From NCBI GenBank assembly GCA_012840465.1, contig DULJ01000085.1:1-64000 (forward strand): 64,000 bases of DNA, in the 5' to 3' direction. The notes under the pieces are model-generated. The model was not told the DNA's origin and did not search any database. It saw only the letters and a program-made list of their open reading frames with translations. Positions 6,026-13,098 of this stretch are shown here, one piece after another (positions within the stretch are counted from its first letter, which is position 1; every line of letters starts with the position of its first letter). Both the position numbers and the translations under genes were made by a program. The stretch is from Caryophanales bacterium (GTDB lineage: Bacteria; Bacillota; Bacilli; Bacillales; Bacillaceae_J).

Positions 6026-7300
6026 ATGTTTATTACAAATAAGCTTTTTGGCAACAATCAGAATCAAGCTAATCGATTTTATGTTTTGCTTACGGCCTTG
6101 CTGACGACGTTTGCCGGTGAATTTAGACTCGTCCCTTATGAAGGGGACGCTTTTCGTTTTGGGTTGGGAAGTATTATCTTTTTTCTTCTTATACTAGTTA
6201 GACCTCCTGCGGTTTCACTAATCCGTATTGGTGTAGTAACAGGGATCACAGTCGTATGTTTTCGGATGATTGAGGATTTTATCCTTTATGAAGTTTTGTT
6301 TTCAAAAAGCCTTTTAAAGCATGTCGCGGCCTTTTTATTCTATTTTATCTATGCCCTTGGTTTGCATATAATTAAAATCGAAAAGTATAAAACATTTCCC
6401 TTGATATTAGGTGCATGGGCATCCGTATTTGAGGTCATTGCAAATGGGACTGAACATTTCGTAAGGCATCTATTATTGGATCAACCGAGTATAGAGTTAA
6501 AGGATTTTGCACTATTAAGCGGCGTTGCGTTACTTAGAAGCTACTTTGTAGTAGGATTATATGGGTCCATCACTGTTTCCGAACAGAAAAAAAGAGTAGA
6601 GGAGCTGTTAAAGGTCGGCTCAGATTTATATGGTGAAACCTTATACTTACAAAAATCAATGAACCATATTGAAAAAATAACGGCTGAGAGCCATGATCTT
6701 TATCGGAAGTTAAAACAGGAAAATTTAAAACAATTAAGTGCACAAGCATTACATATTGCTCAAGAAATCCATGAGGTCAAAAAAGACTCCCAGCGAATAT
6801 TAGCCGGACTTACAAAAATAGGAGAACAGAAAATGGATAACACTGTCTCGCTATCTGATCTGATGAATCTTGTTATAAGTGCCAATGAAAAATATAGTGA
6901 GCTTTTACAGAAGAAAATAGTTTTAAATGGAACTATCTCAAGTAATTATCAAACCGATCAATTAATTCCTCTTCTTGCTTTATTAAATAATATTACGGCC
7001 AATGCCGTTGAAGCGATTCATGAAAAAGGTGAAATCGATTTGAAAATATATGATGAGCAGGAAAGTACGTTTTTTGTGATTGCCGATTCTGGACCTGGGA
7101 TTCCAAAAGCAGATCTCCCGACTATTTTTGAACCGGGCTATACAACAAAATTCAATGACCGTGGTGTGGCTGCCACAGGGATTGGGCTTTCCCATGTACA
7201 AGAGATTGTTCATACTCTTCAAGGCCAAGTAGAAGTAGATACTTCTGAAAACGGAACTATTTTTAAAATTAAAATTCCAACTACTATTTTGCGAAAGTGA
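6026..7300 (+). CDS. glnK: Sensor histidine kinase, GlnK type
   Basis: 424 residues. About six membrane segments occupy the first ~190 residues, followed by a helical dimerisation region with the phospho-acceptor His in AQEIHEVKKDSQRI and a C-terminal ATPase domain (N box NNITANAVEAI, SGPGIP, GVAATGIGLSHV). The layout and sequence fit B. subtilis GlnK (YcbA), which with GlnL activates glutamine uptake and glutaminase genes in response to glutamine. ATG 6026 follows AGGAGAT. The stop is immediately followed by the partner regulator, with no room for a separate promoter, so the two form one operon. Confidence 0.88.
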   Translation: MFITNKLFGNNQNQANRFYVLLTALLTTFAGEFRLVPYEGDAFRFGLGSIIFFLLILVRPPAVSLIRIGVVTGITVVCFRMIEDFILYEVLFSKSLLKHVAAFLFYFIYALGLHIIKIEKYKTFPLILGAWASVFEVIANGTEHFVRHLLLDQPSIELKDFALLSGVALLRSYFVVGLYGSITVSEQKKRVEELLKVGSDLYGETLYLQKSMNHIEKITAESHDLYRKLKQENLKQLSAQALHIAQEIHEVKKDSQRILAGLTKIGEQKMDNTVSLSDLMNLVISANEKYSELLQKKIVLNGTISSNYQTDQLIPLLALLNNITANAVEAIHEKGEIDLKIYDEQESTFFVIADSGPGIPKADLPTIFEPGYTTKFNDRGVAATGIGLSHVQEIVHTLQGQVEVDTSENGTIFKIKIPTTILRK

Positions 7301-7310
7301 GTGTTTAAAA

Positions 7311-8198
7311 CTGCGGTATTTTATTGTAGATGACGATAGAGCTAGTAGAATGATGTTGAAGAATATTATTACAGAAGGAGAGCTTGGGGTTGTAATTGGA
7401 GAGGCTGAAAGTGGGTCGAAAGGTCTTAAATCAATTATTACGATGCATCCTGATGTAGTTTTGATTGACTTTCTAATGCCGGAGTTCGACGGAATTGAAA
7501 CAATTGAATACTTGAAAAAAGAGGGATTTGAAGGGCAATTCATTATGATCTCCCAAGTTGTCAACAAAGAAATGGTGGCAGAAGCGTATGAAAAAGGGGT
7601 CGAGTTTTTTATAAATAAACCGATTAATCGTGTTGAGGTCCAAAGTATATTAAAAAGAACGGCAGAGCAATATAAACTAAAAGATTCCCTTCAAGCAATC
7701 CGGGAATCCCTCACAAAAATTGGACTCGGTACAATGAAAAGAAAGATTACTGTAAAGGACACGGTACTTTCAATATTAAATGATATGGGGGTTATTGGTG
7801 AAGCCGGCAGTGATGATATCATTGCCATCATTGAATTTTTGATGAACCAAACTGAAAAGACAGCCCAATTACCGCCACTGAAGGATTTATATGAAGCAAT
7901 TGCAATGAAAGGCGAAACTGATAATGTAGACATAGCAAAAGAAAGCAAAGCAATTGAACAGCGCATAAGAAGAACAATCCAAGTTGCGATCAATAATTTA
8001 GCTTCATTAGGGGCTATTGATTATACTAATCCTGAGTTTGAGTATTATGCACCCCGGTATTTCGACTTTCAGGAAGTAAGAAACCATATGATTATGATTG
8101 AAGAAGGCAGAAATGAACAGGTGAAATACAAAATTAACATCCGTAAGTTTCTTCAAGTATTGTATGTGGAAACCATGAAAAAAGTCAGTCAGAATTAA
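7311..8198 (+). CDS. glnL: Response regulator, GlnL/YcbB type, probable CTG start
   Basis: About 295 residues. The receiver domain begins LRYFIVDDDRAS, with the acidic pocket (DDD), the phospho-acceptor Asp in VVLIDFLMPEFDG and the Lys of FINKPIN. The second half is a YcbB-type DNA-binding domain (VLSILNDMGVIGEAGSDDI). The first in-frame ATG (7350) would remove the acidic pocket, and no ATG, GTG or TTG lies upstream in frame. A CTG at 7311, about 8 bases after AAAGTGAG, restores a complete receiver. I infer a CTG start overlapping the translational coupling region of glnK, and a product partnering GlnK. Confidence 0.85.
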   Translation: MRYFIVDDDRASRMMLKNIITEGELGVVIGEAESGSKGLKSIITMHPDVVLIDFLMPEFDGIETIEYLKKEGFEGQFIMISQVVNKEMVAEAYEKGVEFFINKPINRVEVQSILKRTAEQYKLKDSLQAIRESLTKIGLGTMKRKITVKDTVLSILNDMGVIGEAGSDDIIAIIEFLMNQTEKTAQLPPLKDLYEAIAMKGETDNVDIAKESKAIEQRIRRTIQVAINNLASLGAIDYTNPEFEYYAPRYFDFQEVRNHMIMIEEGRNEQVKYKINIRKFLQVLYVETMKKVSQN

Positions 8199-8307: not shown

Positions 8308-8331
8308 ATACAAAAAAGGGGTGACTTGTTA

Positions 8332-9612
8332 ATGAAGAAAAAGTTTAGCTTTCCTCTTGCTTATCAAATATTGGTAGGTTTAATTCTAGGTATTATCGTA
8401 GGTGCAATCTTTTATGGAAACCCAGCGATTGATACTTACTTGAAGCCACTAGGAACCATCTTCCTAAATATGATTAAAATGATCGTAGTTCCAATCATCG
8501 TTTCTACACTAATTATTGGGGTAGCAGGAACTGGCGACCTTAAACAGTTGGGCAAACTCGGCGGTAAAACACTAATTTATTTTGAAATAGTTACAACAAT
8601 TGCGATTATAGTTGGTTTATTATCCGCGAATATTTTCCAACCTGGAGTAGGCATTGATATGTCTGAACTTACAAAAACAGATATAGGCAGCTATGTTGAA
8701 ACAACTGAACAAGTTTCAGGTCAAGGTCATGGTATTTTTGACATTATTGTAAGCATAGTTCCAACAAACGTTGTATCGGCAATGGCAAATGGCAATATGC
8801 TGTCAATTATCTTCTTCTCGGTAGTATTCGGATTAGGGGTAGCAGCGATTGGCGAAAAAGGAAAACCAGTGCTTGCATTCTTCGAGGGTGTAGCAGATGC
8901 GATGTTCTGGGTAACAAACTTTGTTATGAAATTTGCTCCATTTGGTGTATTCGGTTTAATTGGTGTTACCGTTTCTAAATTTGGTTTAGCATCTTTAGTT
9001 CCACTTGGAAAGTTGATGATCCTTGTTTACTTAACAATGGCATTCTTTATTTTAGTGGTGTTAGGTGGTATAGCTAAACTAGTTGGTATTAATATATTCC
9101 ATGTTTTCAAAGTGTTAAAAGAAGAACTAATTTTGGCATATTCCACATCAAGTTCTGAAACGGTGTTACCGAAGATCATAGAAAAAATGGAAAAGTTCGG
9201 TTGTCCAAAAGATATTGTTTCTTTTGTTGTCCCAACTGGATATTCCTTTAACCTTGATGGTTCAACATTATATCAGGCTCTTGCCGCTATTTTTATCGCG
9301 CAAATGTATGGTATCAATCTTAGCATCAGTGAACAAATTACATTAATATTAGTATTAATGGTTACATCTAAAGGTATTGCTGGTGTACCGGGTGTATCAT
9401 TCGTAGTACTTTTAGCAACACTAGGAACAGTTGGAATTCCGATAGAAGGACTCGCTTTCATTGCTGGTGTTGACAGACTTCTTGATATGGCACGTACAGT
9501 TGTAAACGTATGTGGTAACTCTCTTGCTGCAATTGTTATGTCAAAATGGGAAGGTCGTTTTGACAATACGAAGAAAGAGCAATACTATGCTTCTATCAAA
9601 AATGCAGCTTAA
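8332..9612 (+). CDS. Glutamate/dicarboxylate:cation symporter (GltT/GltP/DctP type)
   Basis: 426 residues, a DAACS-family (PF00375) secondary transporter with eight membrane helices and two re-entrant loops. Diagnostic motifs are the serine-rich loop TSSSETVLP, GYSFNLDGS in helix 7 and DRLLDMARTVVNVCGNS in helix 8. The last motif, with its Asp and Arg, is more like glutamate/aspartate carriers than DctP. I choose ATG 8332 because GGGGTG sits 8 bases before it; the TTG six bases upstream is poorly placed. It lies directly after glnKL, whose B. subtilis counterpart controls glutamine/glutamate genes, so this is a probable target. Candidate cre boxes precede it. Confidence 0.88.
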   Translation: MKKKFSFPLAYQILVGLILGIIVGAIFYGNPAIDTYLKPLGTIFLNMIKMIVVPIIVSTLIIGVAGTGDLKQLGKLGGKTLIYFEIVTTIAIIVGLLSANIFQPGVGIDMSELTKTDIGSYVETTEQVSGQGHGIFDIIVSIVPTNVVSAMANGNMLSIIFFSVVFGLGVAAIGEKGKPVLAFFEGVADAMFWVTNFVMKFAPFGVFGLIGVTVSKFGLASLVPLGKLMILVYLTMAFFILVVLGGIAKLVGINIFHVFKVLKEELILAYSTSSSETVLPKIIEKMEKFGCPKDIVSFVVPTGYSFNLDGSTLYQALAAIFIAQMYGINLSISEQITLILVLMVTSKGIAGVPGVSFVVLLATLGTVGIPIEGLAFIAGVDRLLDMARTVVNVCGNSLAAIVMSKWEGRFDNTKKEQYYASIKNAA

Positions 9613-9634
9613 TAATGGAAAGTAGTATTATGAT

Positions 9635-9663
9635 TTGACAGTTTAGAATGAATAGTATATAAA
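9635..9663 (+). promoter_or_regulatory. Sigma-A promoter for the first amino-acid ABC operon
   Basis: TTGACA (9635-9640), a 17-base spacer and TATAAA (9658-9663). Transcription would start near 9670, giving a leader of about 230 bases before the lipoprotein gene. Confidence 0.75.
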
Positions 9664-9669
9664 TATAAT

Positions 9670-9815
9670 ATAAATCAATTGAATAATAACCTCACTTTTC
9701 AATCAGTGGGGTAAAGGCGCGATAGTTTATTGAGGTGTGCTATCTCATTGGGAAACAGAGAGGGATTTGGGTAACCTGCATATATACGACCTGAGTTGAT
9801 CTCGGGTCGTTTTTA
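9670..9815 (+). ncRNA. Structured 5' leader with terminator (candidate riboswitch or attenuator)
   Basis: Between the promoter and the lipoprotein gene the leader can fold into a CCTCAC/GTGGGG hairpin, a GATAG/CTATC hairpin (about 9720-9752), CTC/GAG and GGG/CCT pairings, and finally a strong terminator, ACGACCTGAG/CTCGGGTCGT (9786-9810) with a T tract. The terminator lies about 90 bases before the start codon, so it attenuates the operon. I cannot place it in a known riboswitch or T-box family: no T-box TGGNACCGCG, lysine-box, glycine or guanidine core is seen. Confidence 0.5.
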
Positions 9816-9902
9816 ATTTTTGCAGTTTTAAGGTACCTATTTGTAGCAACAATCTAGTATACTAATAATAGAAAATTTAAATATTTAACAGGAGGGAAAG
9901 AT

Positions 9903-10766
9903 ATGAGAAAAAAATTATCATTATTTTTTGCCATTTCACTATCAGCCATGCTTCTTTTAGCTGGCTGTGGGACAGGTGATAAAGCAACTGAAAAAGAAAA
10001 TACAGGGGCTCTAGATTCATCAGCTGCAAATGGCGGGACTTTTAAGGTAGGACTTGAAGCAGGGTATGCGCCGTTTAACTGGACTCAAATGGATGAAGCT
10101 AATGGTGCCGTTTCGATAGATGGTGCTGCAGAGTTTGCAGGCGGGTATGATGTGGAAATTGCAAAGAAACTAGCTGAAGGTTTAGGAAAAGAATTAGTGA
10201 TTGTTAAAACTGAATGGGACGGACTTGTGCCAGCTTTAATTTCAGGAAAAGTCGATGCCATTATTGCAGGTATGTCACCAACGGCTAAACGTAAAGAAAC
10301 AATCGACTTCTCAGATAACTATTATAAATCAGATTTAGTAATGGTTGTTAAAAAAGGCGGGAAGTATGAAAGCGCTACTTCTATCCAAGACTTTAATGGT
10401 GCTAAAGTAACAGCGCAATTAAATACGTTCCACTATTCAGTTATTGACCAAATTAAAAATGTGAAAAAACAGCCTGCAATGGATAACTTCCCGGCAATGA
10501 GGGTTGCTCTTGAATCGGGAATTATCGATGGTTATGTTACAGAACGTCCGGAGGCTGTTAGTGCTTCATCTGCTAATGAAAAATTCTCCTTCGTGGAATT
10601 CACAGACGGATTTGAAGCAGATGACGATGACACAGCAATCGCAGTTGGTCTTGCAAAAGGAAGCGAATTAACTTCAAAAATTAATGAAATTTTAGCGGGT
10701 ATCTCGGAAGAAGAACGTATTAATATTATGGATGCTGCTATTAAAAATCAACCTGCAGCACAATAA
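9903..10766 (+). CDS. Amino-acid ABC transporter substrate-binding lipoprotein
   Basis: 287 residues. The signal peptide ends in the lipobox LLAGC, with the lipidated Cys near residue 22. The mature part is a family 3 solute-binding protein (FKVGLEAGYAPFNW, GGYDVEIAKKLAEGLG, DAIIAGMSPTAKRKETIDFS). It binds a polar amino acid outside the membrane and delivers it to the permease encoded next. The ligand cannot be fixed from sequence; lysine, arginine or a related amino acid is possible. ATG 9903 follows AGGAGGGAAAG. A hairpin separates it from the permease, which would favour excess binding protein. Confidence 0.9.
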   Translation: MRKKLSLFFAISLSAMLLLAGCGTGDKATEKENTGALDSSAANGGTFKVGLEAGYAPFNWTQMDEANGAVSIDGAAEFAGGYDVEIAKKLAEGLGKELVIVKTEWDGLVPALISGKVDAIIAGMSPTAKRKETIDFSDNYYKSDLVMVVKKGGKYESATSIQDFNGAKVTAQLNTFHYSVIDQIKNVKKQPAMDNFPAMRVALESGIIDGYVTERPEAVSASSANEKFSFVEFTDGFEADDDDTAIAVGLAKGSELTSKINEILAGISEEERINIMDAAIKNQPAAQ

Positions 10767-10778
10767 AGGTTTTGAAAG

Positions 10779-10857
10779 AGGTTGTCTCAAAATTGTCTAG
10801 CTATCATAAGTGGTGCCGGATAATTTGCACAATTGTACGAAGTGCTTGAGACAGCCT
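10779..10857 (+). repeat. Long inverted repeat between binding protein and permease
   Basis: AGGTTGTCTCAA (10779-10790) pairs with TTGAGACAGCCT (10846-10857) and encloses about 55 bases that can pair further (AATTGT/ACAATT). A short T stretch follows. It probably stabilises or partly terminates the message after the binding-protein gene. A comparable hairpin occupies the same position in the second transporter at 26903-26958. Confidence 0.7.
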
Positions 10858-10885
10858 TTTGTCATGACTGGGATGGAGGGGAAGT

Positions 10886-11668
10886 ATGACCTTAGAATGG
10901 GTTGTAAAAATAATAACAGAAAACTGGCCCATGTTTCTTCGCGGGGCTGGGGTAACACTATACATTTCGATTATTGGTACGATTATAGGCTCCATCATAG
11001 GCTTATTGATAGGTGTAATCCGGACGATTCCAATGGCGGACCGTGGCCCAAAGAAAATTTTATTAAAAATTATTAATGCCATACTTTCTATTTATATCGA
11101 ATTTTTCAGAGGAACACCAATGATTGTACAAGCAATGGTAATATACTATGGATCCGCTTTAGCCTTAGGGATTGACGTGGACCGTATAGTTGCCGCTATT
11201 TTTATCGTTTCTATCAACACTGGTGCCTATATGTCGGAAATTGTTCGCGGCGGTATTGTATCGATTGATAAAGGACAGTTTGAGGCTGCTCAAGCCATTG
11301 GTATGAACCATATTCAAACGATGCTACATGTTGTGTTACCGCAGGTTATTCGCAACATCCTGCCGGCAACAGGTAATGAGTTTGTTATCAATATTAAAGA
11401 TACCTCGGTATTAAACGTTATTTCAGTATCAGAATTATTCTTTGCAACAAAATCAATTGCAGGGAACAACTTCCACTATTTTGAGTCGTTCTTTGTGGCA
11501 TGTATTCTATATTTTATCATGACGTTTACAGTTACTAGAATTCTGCGTTTTATTGAAAGAAAGCTTGAGGGTCCTGATAGCTATATGATGGTGCCAGGCA
11601 ATCAAATGCAAGTTGAAACTGTGGAAGATGCCATTCGCAGAACAGACAAATATGATGGTAATAAATAA
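10886..11668 (+). CDS. Amino-acid ABC transporter permease
   Basis: 260 residues with about five membrane helices. The His/Glu/Gln/Arg/opine permease signature is present (EFFRGTPMIVQ, then the EAA loop GQFEAAQAIGMNHIQTMLHVVLPQ, which contacts the ATPase). The C-terminus has an unusual ~30-residue hydrophilic tail (VETVEDAIRRTDKYDGNK). ATG 10886 follows GGAGGGGAAGT. It is in an operon with the lipoprotein upstream and the ATPase 21 bases downstream. Confidence 0.92.
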   Translation: MTLEWVVKIITENWPMFLRGAGVTLYISIIGTIIGSIIGLLIGVIRTIPMADRGPKKILLKIINAILSIYIEFFRGTPMIVQAMVIYYGSALALGIDVDRIVAAIFIVSINTGAYMSEIVRGGIVSIDKGQFEAAQAIGMNHIQTMLHVVLPQVIRNILPATGNEFVINIKDTSVLNVISVSELFFATKSIAGNNFHYFESFFVACILYFIMTFTVTRILRFIERKLEGPDSYMMVPGNQMQVETVEDAIRRTDKYDGNK

Positions 11669-11689
11669 GCTGGCAAAGGAGTAGAAAAG

Positions 11690-12424
11690 GTGGAAAAGAT
11701 CATTGATATTCAACATTTAAGTAAATCCTTTGGAGCCCATGAAGTATTAAAAGACATCGATTTTTCAGTTAATAAAGGTGAAGTAGTATGTATTATCGGT
11801 TCCTCTGGTTCGGGTAAATCAACACTGCTTCGTTGTGTAAATCTATTAGAAAAGCCGAGCGGCGGCCAAATCATTTATCGTGGTGAAAATATTTTAGACG
11901 ACAGGCATGATATTCCTGCTTATCGTCAAAAGCTGGGCATGGTATTCCAACAATTTAATTTATTTAATAATCACAACGTTTTAAACAATTGTGTTGTTGG
12001 GCAGGTAAAAGTGTTGGGTCGATCAAAGGAAGAAGCGGAAAAGGTCGCCATGAAGTATTTAAAGATTGTTGGCATGGATCAATATGTGAATGCCAAACCT
12101 AAGCAATTATCTGGTGGGCAAAAGCAACGTGTTGCCATTGCCAGAGCGCTTTCAATGGAGCCAGATGTGATTCTTTTTGATGAACCTACATCGGCCTTGG
12201 ATCCAGAAATGGTTGGTGAGGTTCTGAAGATTATGAAGGAGCTTGCAGAATCAGGCCTTACAATGTTAATTGTGACCCATGAAATGGAATTTGCACGAGA
12301 AGTATCTGACCGCGTCGTCTTTATGGATAAAGGGGTCATTGCCGAGGAAGGACCTCCAGAACAAATTTTTAACAAACCAAAACAAGAGCGGACAAAGGAA
12401 TTCTTAAAACGTACGTTAAAATAA
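11690..12424 (+). CDS. Amino-acid ABC transporter ATP-binding protein
   Basis: 244 residues, the standard length for GlnQ/ArtP-type ATPases. It has Walker [11 protein letters not shown]-loop FQQFNLF, signature LSGGQKQR, Walker [13 protein letters not shown] and H-loop VTHEM. It energises the permease upstream. The start is GTG 11690, behind AAAGGAG. It is the last gene of the three-gene operon and a terminator follows. Confidence 0.94.
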
Positions 12425-12485
12425 ATCCGAGCCAGGGAGTTCTTCCAGATCGGTTCAGGGAGAAAAGGTAGTAAATAATTCACGT

Positions 12486-12530
12486 AATAACGTGCCGATT
12501 CGTGGTTGAATTTGCACGTTATTTTTTTCT
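12486..12530 (+). terminator. Rho-independent terminator
   Basis: AATAACGTGC pairs with GCACGTTATT and is followed by seven T. It closes the ABC operon and may also end the convergent thioredoxin-like gene. Confidence 0.85.
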
Positions 12531-12540
12531 TTCCGTATTT

Positions 12541-13098
12541 TTAATAAGCTTCAAATCTTTTCCGTACATCCCGAACAACTGATTGCCAATACTTGGGTTC
12601 AGTTGTTACTGCCTTTTTGAATGATGCAAACATTGCTTTTTGTTTATCAAGAAAATCTGGGGCATCCTGTAGAGGGAGCTCAGCTTTTTTGTCAGACACC
12701 AATTGTTGGACCTCGGGTGACCTTGGCCCCCATACAGCCTTTTCTTCCCCTCTTTCATCAATAAAAATAAAAATTGGAATAGAGCGTGATGTCCCATTTG
12801 TTAAATATTGATCCATTAGTTCCAGATGTTCATCACGAATAAGGAATCTCGTTTTGATCAATGCAATTTCGGCTATTCTTTGTACAACAGGTACACATAG
12901 TGCTGCATCACCACACCAATCCGCAGTAAGGGTCATCATTCGCAGGTTCTTATTTTTTAACCCTGAGAAATACTGAACATCTTCGTGGTTCAGTTCTAAT
13001 TCCTTATAAACTCCCTCTAATTCAGGCCGATTTACTTGCATGTAATTCACGTACTCAGTAAAAGTCATCCCTTTTGAAAACCACTGATTTAATGGCAT
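12541..13098 (-). CDS. Thioredoxin-fold family protein
   Basis: 185 residues. The central MTLTADWCGDAALCVP resembles a thioredoxin active-site region but has a longer spacing between cysteines (WCGDAALC instead of CxxC), as in the Thioredoxin_9 (PF14595) family. FIDERG and a cis-Pro-like SIPIFIF follow. A disulfide or thiol role in the cytosol is likely, with the partner unknown. There is no signal peptide. The start ATG 13098 follows AAGGAGG on the minus strand. It is convergent with the ABC operon. Confidence 0.82.
   Translation of the reverse strand: MPLNQWFSKGMTFTEYVNYMQVNRPELEGVYKELELNHEDVQYFSGLKNKNLRMMTLTADWCGDAALCVPVVQRIAEIALIKTRFLIRDEHLELMDQYLTNGTSRSIPIFIFIDERGEEKAVWGPRSPEVQQLVSDKKAELPLQDAPDFLDKQKAMFASFKKAVTTEPKYWQSVVRDVRKRFEAY

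Follow-up and report, generated by a model that had tools for sequence, protein, structure and literature searches.

In published structures of lysine riboswitches the lysine sits in a five-helix junction, and in the known lysine OFF switches lysine favours termination of transcription. One published account (PMC5584792) places lysine riboswitches (L-boxes) upstream of lysine ABC transporters of the lysX-lysY type. The leader analysed here, at positions 9635-9815 on the forward strand of a 64,000 bp stretch of DNA (the window), resembles two kinds of described system. With the lysine riboswitch family (Rfam RF00168) it shares a promoter, P0 and P1 strands, a linker, a terminator and the family of the downstream gene, its counterpart being found in Schinkia azotoformans, but it is without a 137-nt core (P2, P3, P4 and half of P5) and does not match the family model. 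With a plain, sensorless intrinsic-terminator attenuator it shares the order of promoter, short stem-loop, terminator and then operon, but it descends from a riboswitch and still carries P1 and the linker. We consider it quite probable that a standard terminating lysine riboswitch once stood here, before a lysine-transporter operon, and that its aptamer was deleted while the flanking parts were kept.

Riboswitch catalogues are built on intact aptamers, so remains of this kind are invisible to Rfam scans and appear as "orphan structured leaders"; a warning for riboswitch discovery is that such an orphan may be a relic. Our literature search gave no recognisable report of an aptamer-deleted lysine riboswitch or of a Schinkia riboswitch, although most subscription journals lay outside the search and the absence is unproven.

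The leader and its neighbouring genes

The gene upstream of the leader is gltP (8326-9612), and directly upstream of gltP, at 6026-8198, are a histidine kinase and a response regulator with a YcbB domain, which we take to be a pair of the GlnK/GlnL type. Downstream of the leader are, all on the forward strand, a substrate-binding lipoprotein (9903-10766; SBP_bac_3, PF00497) that is probably a lysine-transport binding protein, an ABC permease (10886-11668; BPD_transp_1, HEQRo_perm_3TM) and an ABC ATPase (11690-12424; ABC_tran), in agreement with the earlier note, which had placed an amino-acid ABC operon here. The best NCBIfam match of the lipoprotein is TIGR01096 (lysine/arginine/ornithine), and since its score is under the cut-off of that model the substrate is one that we infer: from its sequence and its relatives (below) we take the transporter to be, most likely, an importer of lysine, of the lysX-lysY type.

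The clear promoter described by the earlier note can be read in the sequence as TTGACA-17 nt-TATAAA at 9635-9663 (-35 at 9635-9640, -10 at 9658-9663), directly upstream of the element that it had marked from 9670. A promoter scanner reported only an overlapping TTTAGA/TATAAT pair (9642-9669) at the leader, and the number of promoters it found between 9000 and 13000 was not above that in shuffled sequence (10 found, 13.8 expected). The -35/-10 arrangement is present as well in loci L001-L005, and 25 of its 29 positions are identical in the intact riboswitch leader of S. azotoformans (genome G004); in a further Schinkia genome, G005, the -35 is TTGAAA.

The strong terminator also stands: ACGACCTGAG-TTGAT-CTCGGGTCGT and the T-run after it occupy 9786-9815, with a G+C-rich stem-loop at 9786-9810 (10 pairs) followed by the run of T, as is expected of an intrinsic terminator. 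Terminator-like sites in the 9000-13000 region are not more frequent than in shuffled sequence (4 found, 2.9 expected), but we consider this one real because it is conserved across species; it is identical at 26 of 30 positions to that of S. azotoformans, at 25 of 30 to that of a third Schinkia genome, G006, and at 26 of 30 to that of G005.

An intact counterpart and the missing aptamer

A DNA search for the leader through seven family genomes, the window's own included, found it in three other genomes of the same genus, and in S. azotoformans the copy was recovered in two parts separated by additional sequence. Promoter, P1 strands, linker and terminator recur there in front of the same gltP-ABC genes, and the leader is an intact lysine riboswitch (RF00168, 102 bits, E 1.3e-26). 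The two leaders align colinearly on either side of a single gap, and between the shared anchors there are 184 nt in S. azotoformans and 47 nt in the window, so that 137 nt are missing. At the deletion junction, 9724|9725, the P1 5' strand with the first part of J1/2 runs straight on into the 3' side of P5; P2, P3, P4 and the 5' half of P5, all present in S. azotoformans, are absent. This helix reading is based on the RF00168 structure line of the S. azotoformans match, to which we assigned the presumed helix numbers P1-P5.

The retained parts can be laid out from this alignment as follows: a P0 hairpin (CCTCAC/GTGGGG, 9690-9711), read in the sequence and predicted in the open state, in which it would engage the P1 5' strand instead of P1, with CCTCAC..GTGAGG seen again among leaders that are intact; what is left of the 5' end of the aptamer, namely the P1 5' strand and the first part of J1/2 (9704-9724), the RF00168 match in S. 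azotoformans beginning at the base that aligns with the start of the window's P1 5' strand; the P5 3' stub, J5/1 and P1 3' strand (9725-9750), of which 9732-9749 are identical in S. azotoformans (18/18); and a linker (9750-9785) with a tentative antiterminator strand at 9765-9772, predicted to pair with 9789-9796. The P1 closing strands and the terminator are thus kept, and both are predicted to fold. Comparison with S. azotoformans therefore shows a relic of RF00168 with its core deleted, clearly a descendant of the family though by test not a member of it.

Could what remains still bind lysine, as a miniature aptamer? P1 and part of J1/2 are present, but the window and G006 are without P2, P3 and P4, and the RF00168 five-helix junction that holds the lysine pocket (P1-P5) is absent from the window, where P2-P4 and the P5 5' strand are missing by alignment with S. 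azotoformans. With P2-P4 removed the binding core would be lost, and we regard a surviving small aptamer as extremely improbable. It is scarcely more credible that the organism has a complete aptamer that was collapsed in assembly. The window genome is a draft of 138 contigs, but in two other Schinkia genomes this aptamer carries deletions of another extent, and other lysine riboswitches were assembled in full in all seven family genomes, each of which has at least one above the cut-off elsewhere. In the window genome this second locus is an intact lysine riboswitch of 120 bits, upstream of a reading frame that we take to be dapA-like.

No family in Rfam, T-box or other riboswitch included, matches the 64-kb window at its gathering score, and RF00168 (gathering score 30 bits) gives no match to 9600-9910 even at E<=10. 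Relatives do match (above), and the lack of a direct match in the window is explained by the deletion of the aptamer; the leader that the earlier note could not assign thus has an identifiable ancestor in the lysine riboswitch. The highest-scoring Rfam model at the leader, rli38, reaches 19.7 bits where its cut-off is 49, and it and a viral pseudoknot (E 1.9 and 9.9) were set aside as chance matches. With the terminator included, the fold of the whole leader is better than that of shuffled sequences (z -3.03; 1 of 200 shuffles as good), but when the terminator is left off it is not (z -1.03; 31 of 200). The several hairpins that the earlier note saw beside the terminator are thus not significant by energy alone and can be recognised by homology only, as P0/P1 of an L-box. 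That no Rfam match up to E 10 reaches the cut-off of its family, and the z of the whole-leader fold, are what could favour the earlier note's idea of an unassigned sensor, taken as a new kind of riboswitch or as a leader that answers to a protein. That idea is nonetheless very improbable, as nearly all bases of 9690-9815 have a counterpart in the S. azotoformans lysine riboswitch leader, sequence has been lost and none gained, the fold without the terminator is unremarkable and no new core is common to the three deleted leaders. The architecture of a metabolite-sensing leader is explained by the lysine riboswitch ancestor, but in the window the sensing domain itself is gone.

Lysine riboswitches and their loss among relatives

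An alignment of five orthologous lipoproteins was used as the query for relatives of the transporter, and the best 80 of 143 relatives were taken from named genomes. RF00168 was found upstream on the same strand in 70 of these 80 loci (by batch of loci, 14/20, 18/20, 18/20 and 20/20). The 70 include L123, which is cut by a contig end, and L083 of Cytobacillus gottheilii, in which a group II intron (1157-2965; three Rfam matches) lies between the riboswitch (822-1005) and the transporter gene (3001) and sets them some 2 kb apart. Among the 10 loci without RF00168, three (L047, L053 and L086) keep the terminator platform, only 194 nt are available upstream of the gene in L066, and no platform was recognised by eye in L049, L052, L055, L062, L068 and L093. 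Of 150 genomes sampled across the order, 13 have the gene; the 11 loci scanned, which are those other than the window genome and G005, have RF00168 in 10 cases, Calidifontibacillus being the one without. These proportions, 70/80 and 10/11, indicate that lysine-riboswitch control was the ancestral state of the operon.

Within Schinkia the 184 nt of aptamer sequence are replaced by remnants of 47 nt in the window, 42 nt in G006 and 91 nt in G005, with different end points, and in G005 an RF00168 match can still be made out, decayed and under the cut-off at 18 bits. In a tree built on the three ABC proteins the intact S. azotoformans groups with G006 (support 78), the window is next and G005 branches outside these. 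The topology expected of a single shared loss, with the three deleted leaders together to the exclusion of S. azotoformans, is rejected (AU p=1.3e-6), and there were therefore at least two aptamer losses in this one genus; three are probably to be counted rather than two, although none of the orders among the window, S. azotoformans and G006 is rejected (p-AU 0.16, 0.25 and 0.83). It is this repetition within one genus, shown by comparison of the leaders, that makes the finding interesting: before one and the same operon stand one complete riboswitch and three leaders each with a deletion of its own, all of them with the expression platform, and the Schinkia leaders are a natural experiment on a terminator platform without its sensor.

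Similar remains occur outside the genus. Ammoniphilus resinae (L053) shares 31 consecutive bases, without a mismatch, with the platform of the intact leaders L096 and L112, and Calidifontibacillus (L086) has 31 bases at 93.5% identity to the platform of L070; in both the aptamer is gone. A promoter-like site and a terminator are still visible in all five decayed leaders examined. We offer only as a tentative generalisation, and one that may well be wrong, that lineages of the Bacillaceae type have repeatedly, perhaps adaptively, cut out the sensor and kept promoter, closing stem and terminator as a fixed or differently gated attenuator. If true, they would form a natural aptamer-deletion series that shows the dismantling of riboswitch control.

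Retention of the flanking parts

Have the flanking parts been kept for a use, or are they simply drifting after relaxed selection cost the leader its aptamer, with no regulatory role left? Drift is a possible explanation, though a doubtful one. In its favour, the P1 3' strand of G006 is altered and already eroding (CTATCATCAACG), Calidifontibacillus and Ammoniphilus hold little beyond the terminator, and the intact copy in the sister S. azotoformans suggests that some of the losses are young. The persistence of promoter-like site and terminator in five of five decayed leaders argues against it, however, as does a paired change in the G006 terminator (ACCTAAG/CTTGGGT), which is predicted still to fold. 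The window and G005 also differ at 58% of fourfold sites (0.42 identity), a figure far exceeded by the identity of the kept parts, which is 17/18 in the P1 3' strand, 27/34 in the P0/P1 5' part, 17/22 in the linker and 26/30 in the terminator; between the terminator and the ribosome-binding site 29 of 73 positions are identical. Such identity shows long constraint, which may predate the losses.

A different use, the ending of gltP transcription, could be the chief reason for keeping the terminator. From 9612 to 9786 the window shows no terminator-like site, and a second terminator downstream of gltP was not found in G005 either, so in these two genomes the leader terminator may also serve gltP. 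By contrast, G006 has an extra terminator after gltP (L047 2664-2702), as does S. azotoformans by reading and folding (the scanner gave none there). But G006 keeps the leader terminator although it has both, and the promoter at 9635 is likewise retained, so that we judge it rather unlikely that gltP is the main reason.

Lysine-blind intrinsic attenuation is the most likely function of the window leader on the sequence comparisons above, and lysine has probably ceased to control the operon. The proposed course of events is as follows: In intact leaders the P1 5' strand would pair either with the upstream CCTCAC (P0) or with the P1 3' strand, and lysine should favour P1 and hence termination. 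The deletion would have cut out the five-way junction that binds the ligand, leaving the P1 5' strand fused to the P5 3' stub, and the choice between P0 and P1 would no longer be gated by ligand. RNA polymerase would pass from the old promoter through a short stem-loop where the aptamer used to be to the old terminator, where a roughly fixed share of transcripts would end at any lysine level; the response to lysine would be lost and attenuation constitutive.

The calculated energy of P1 closed minus open is -6.6 kcal/mol in the window, -6.8 in G006, -5.9 in G005 and -6.1 in the intact leader of S. azotoformans, and the median of 25 intact leaders is -6.2 kcal/mol (range -10.3 to -1.8). These nearest-neighbour energies show no difference between deleted and intact leaders and so do not indicate that the deleted stem is "locked off". 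Antiterminator pairing is predicted in the window, S. azotoformans and G006; its duplex energy reaches p<=0.05 in 6 of 34 intact loci and p=0.138 in the window. For covariation 38 loci were tried and 8 dropped because their terminator motif pattern did not match, and alignment of the platform in the other 30 (MAFFT and RNAalifold) recovered the terminator but no consensus antiterminator.

Further downstream in the operon, the gap between the lipoprotein and permease genes contains a strong hairpin (10767-10875; z -4.89, 0 of 200 shuffles as good) that is single-copy in the genome and is perhaps a stem for mRNA processing or differential expression.
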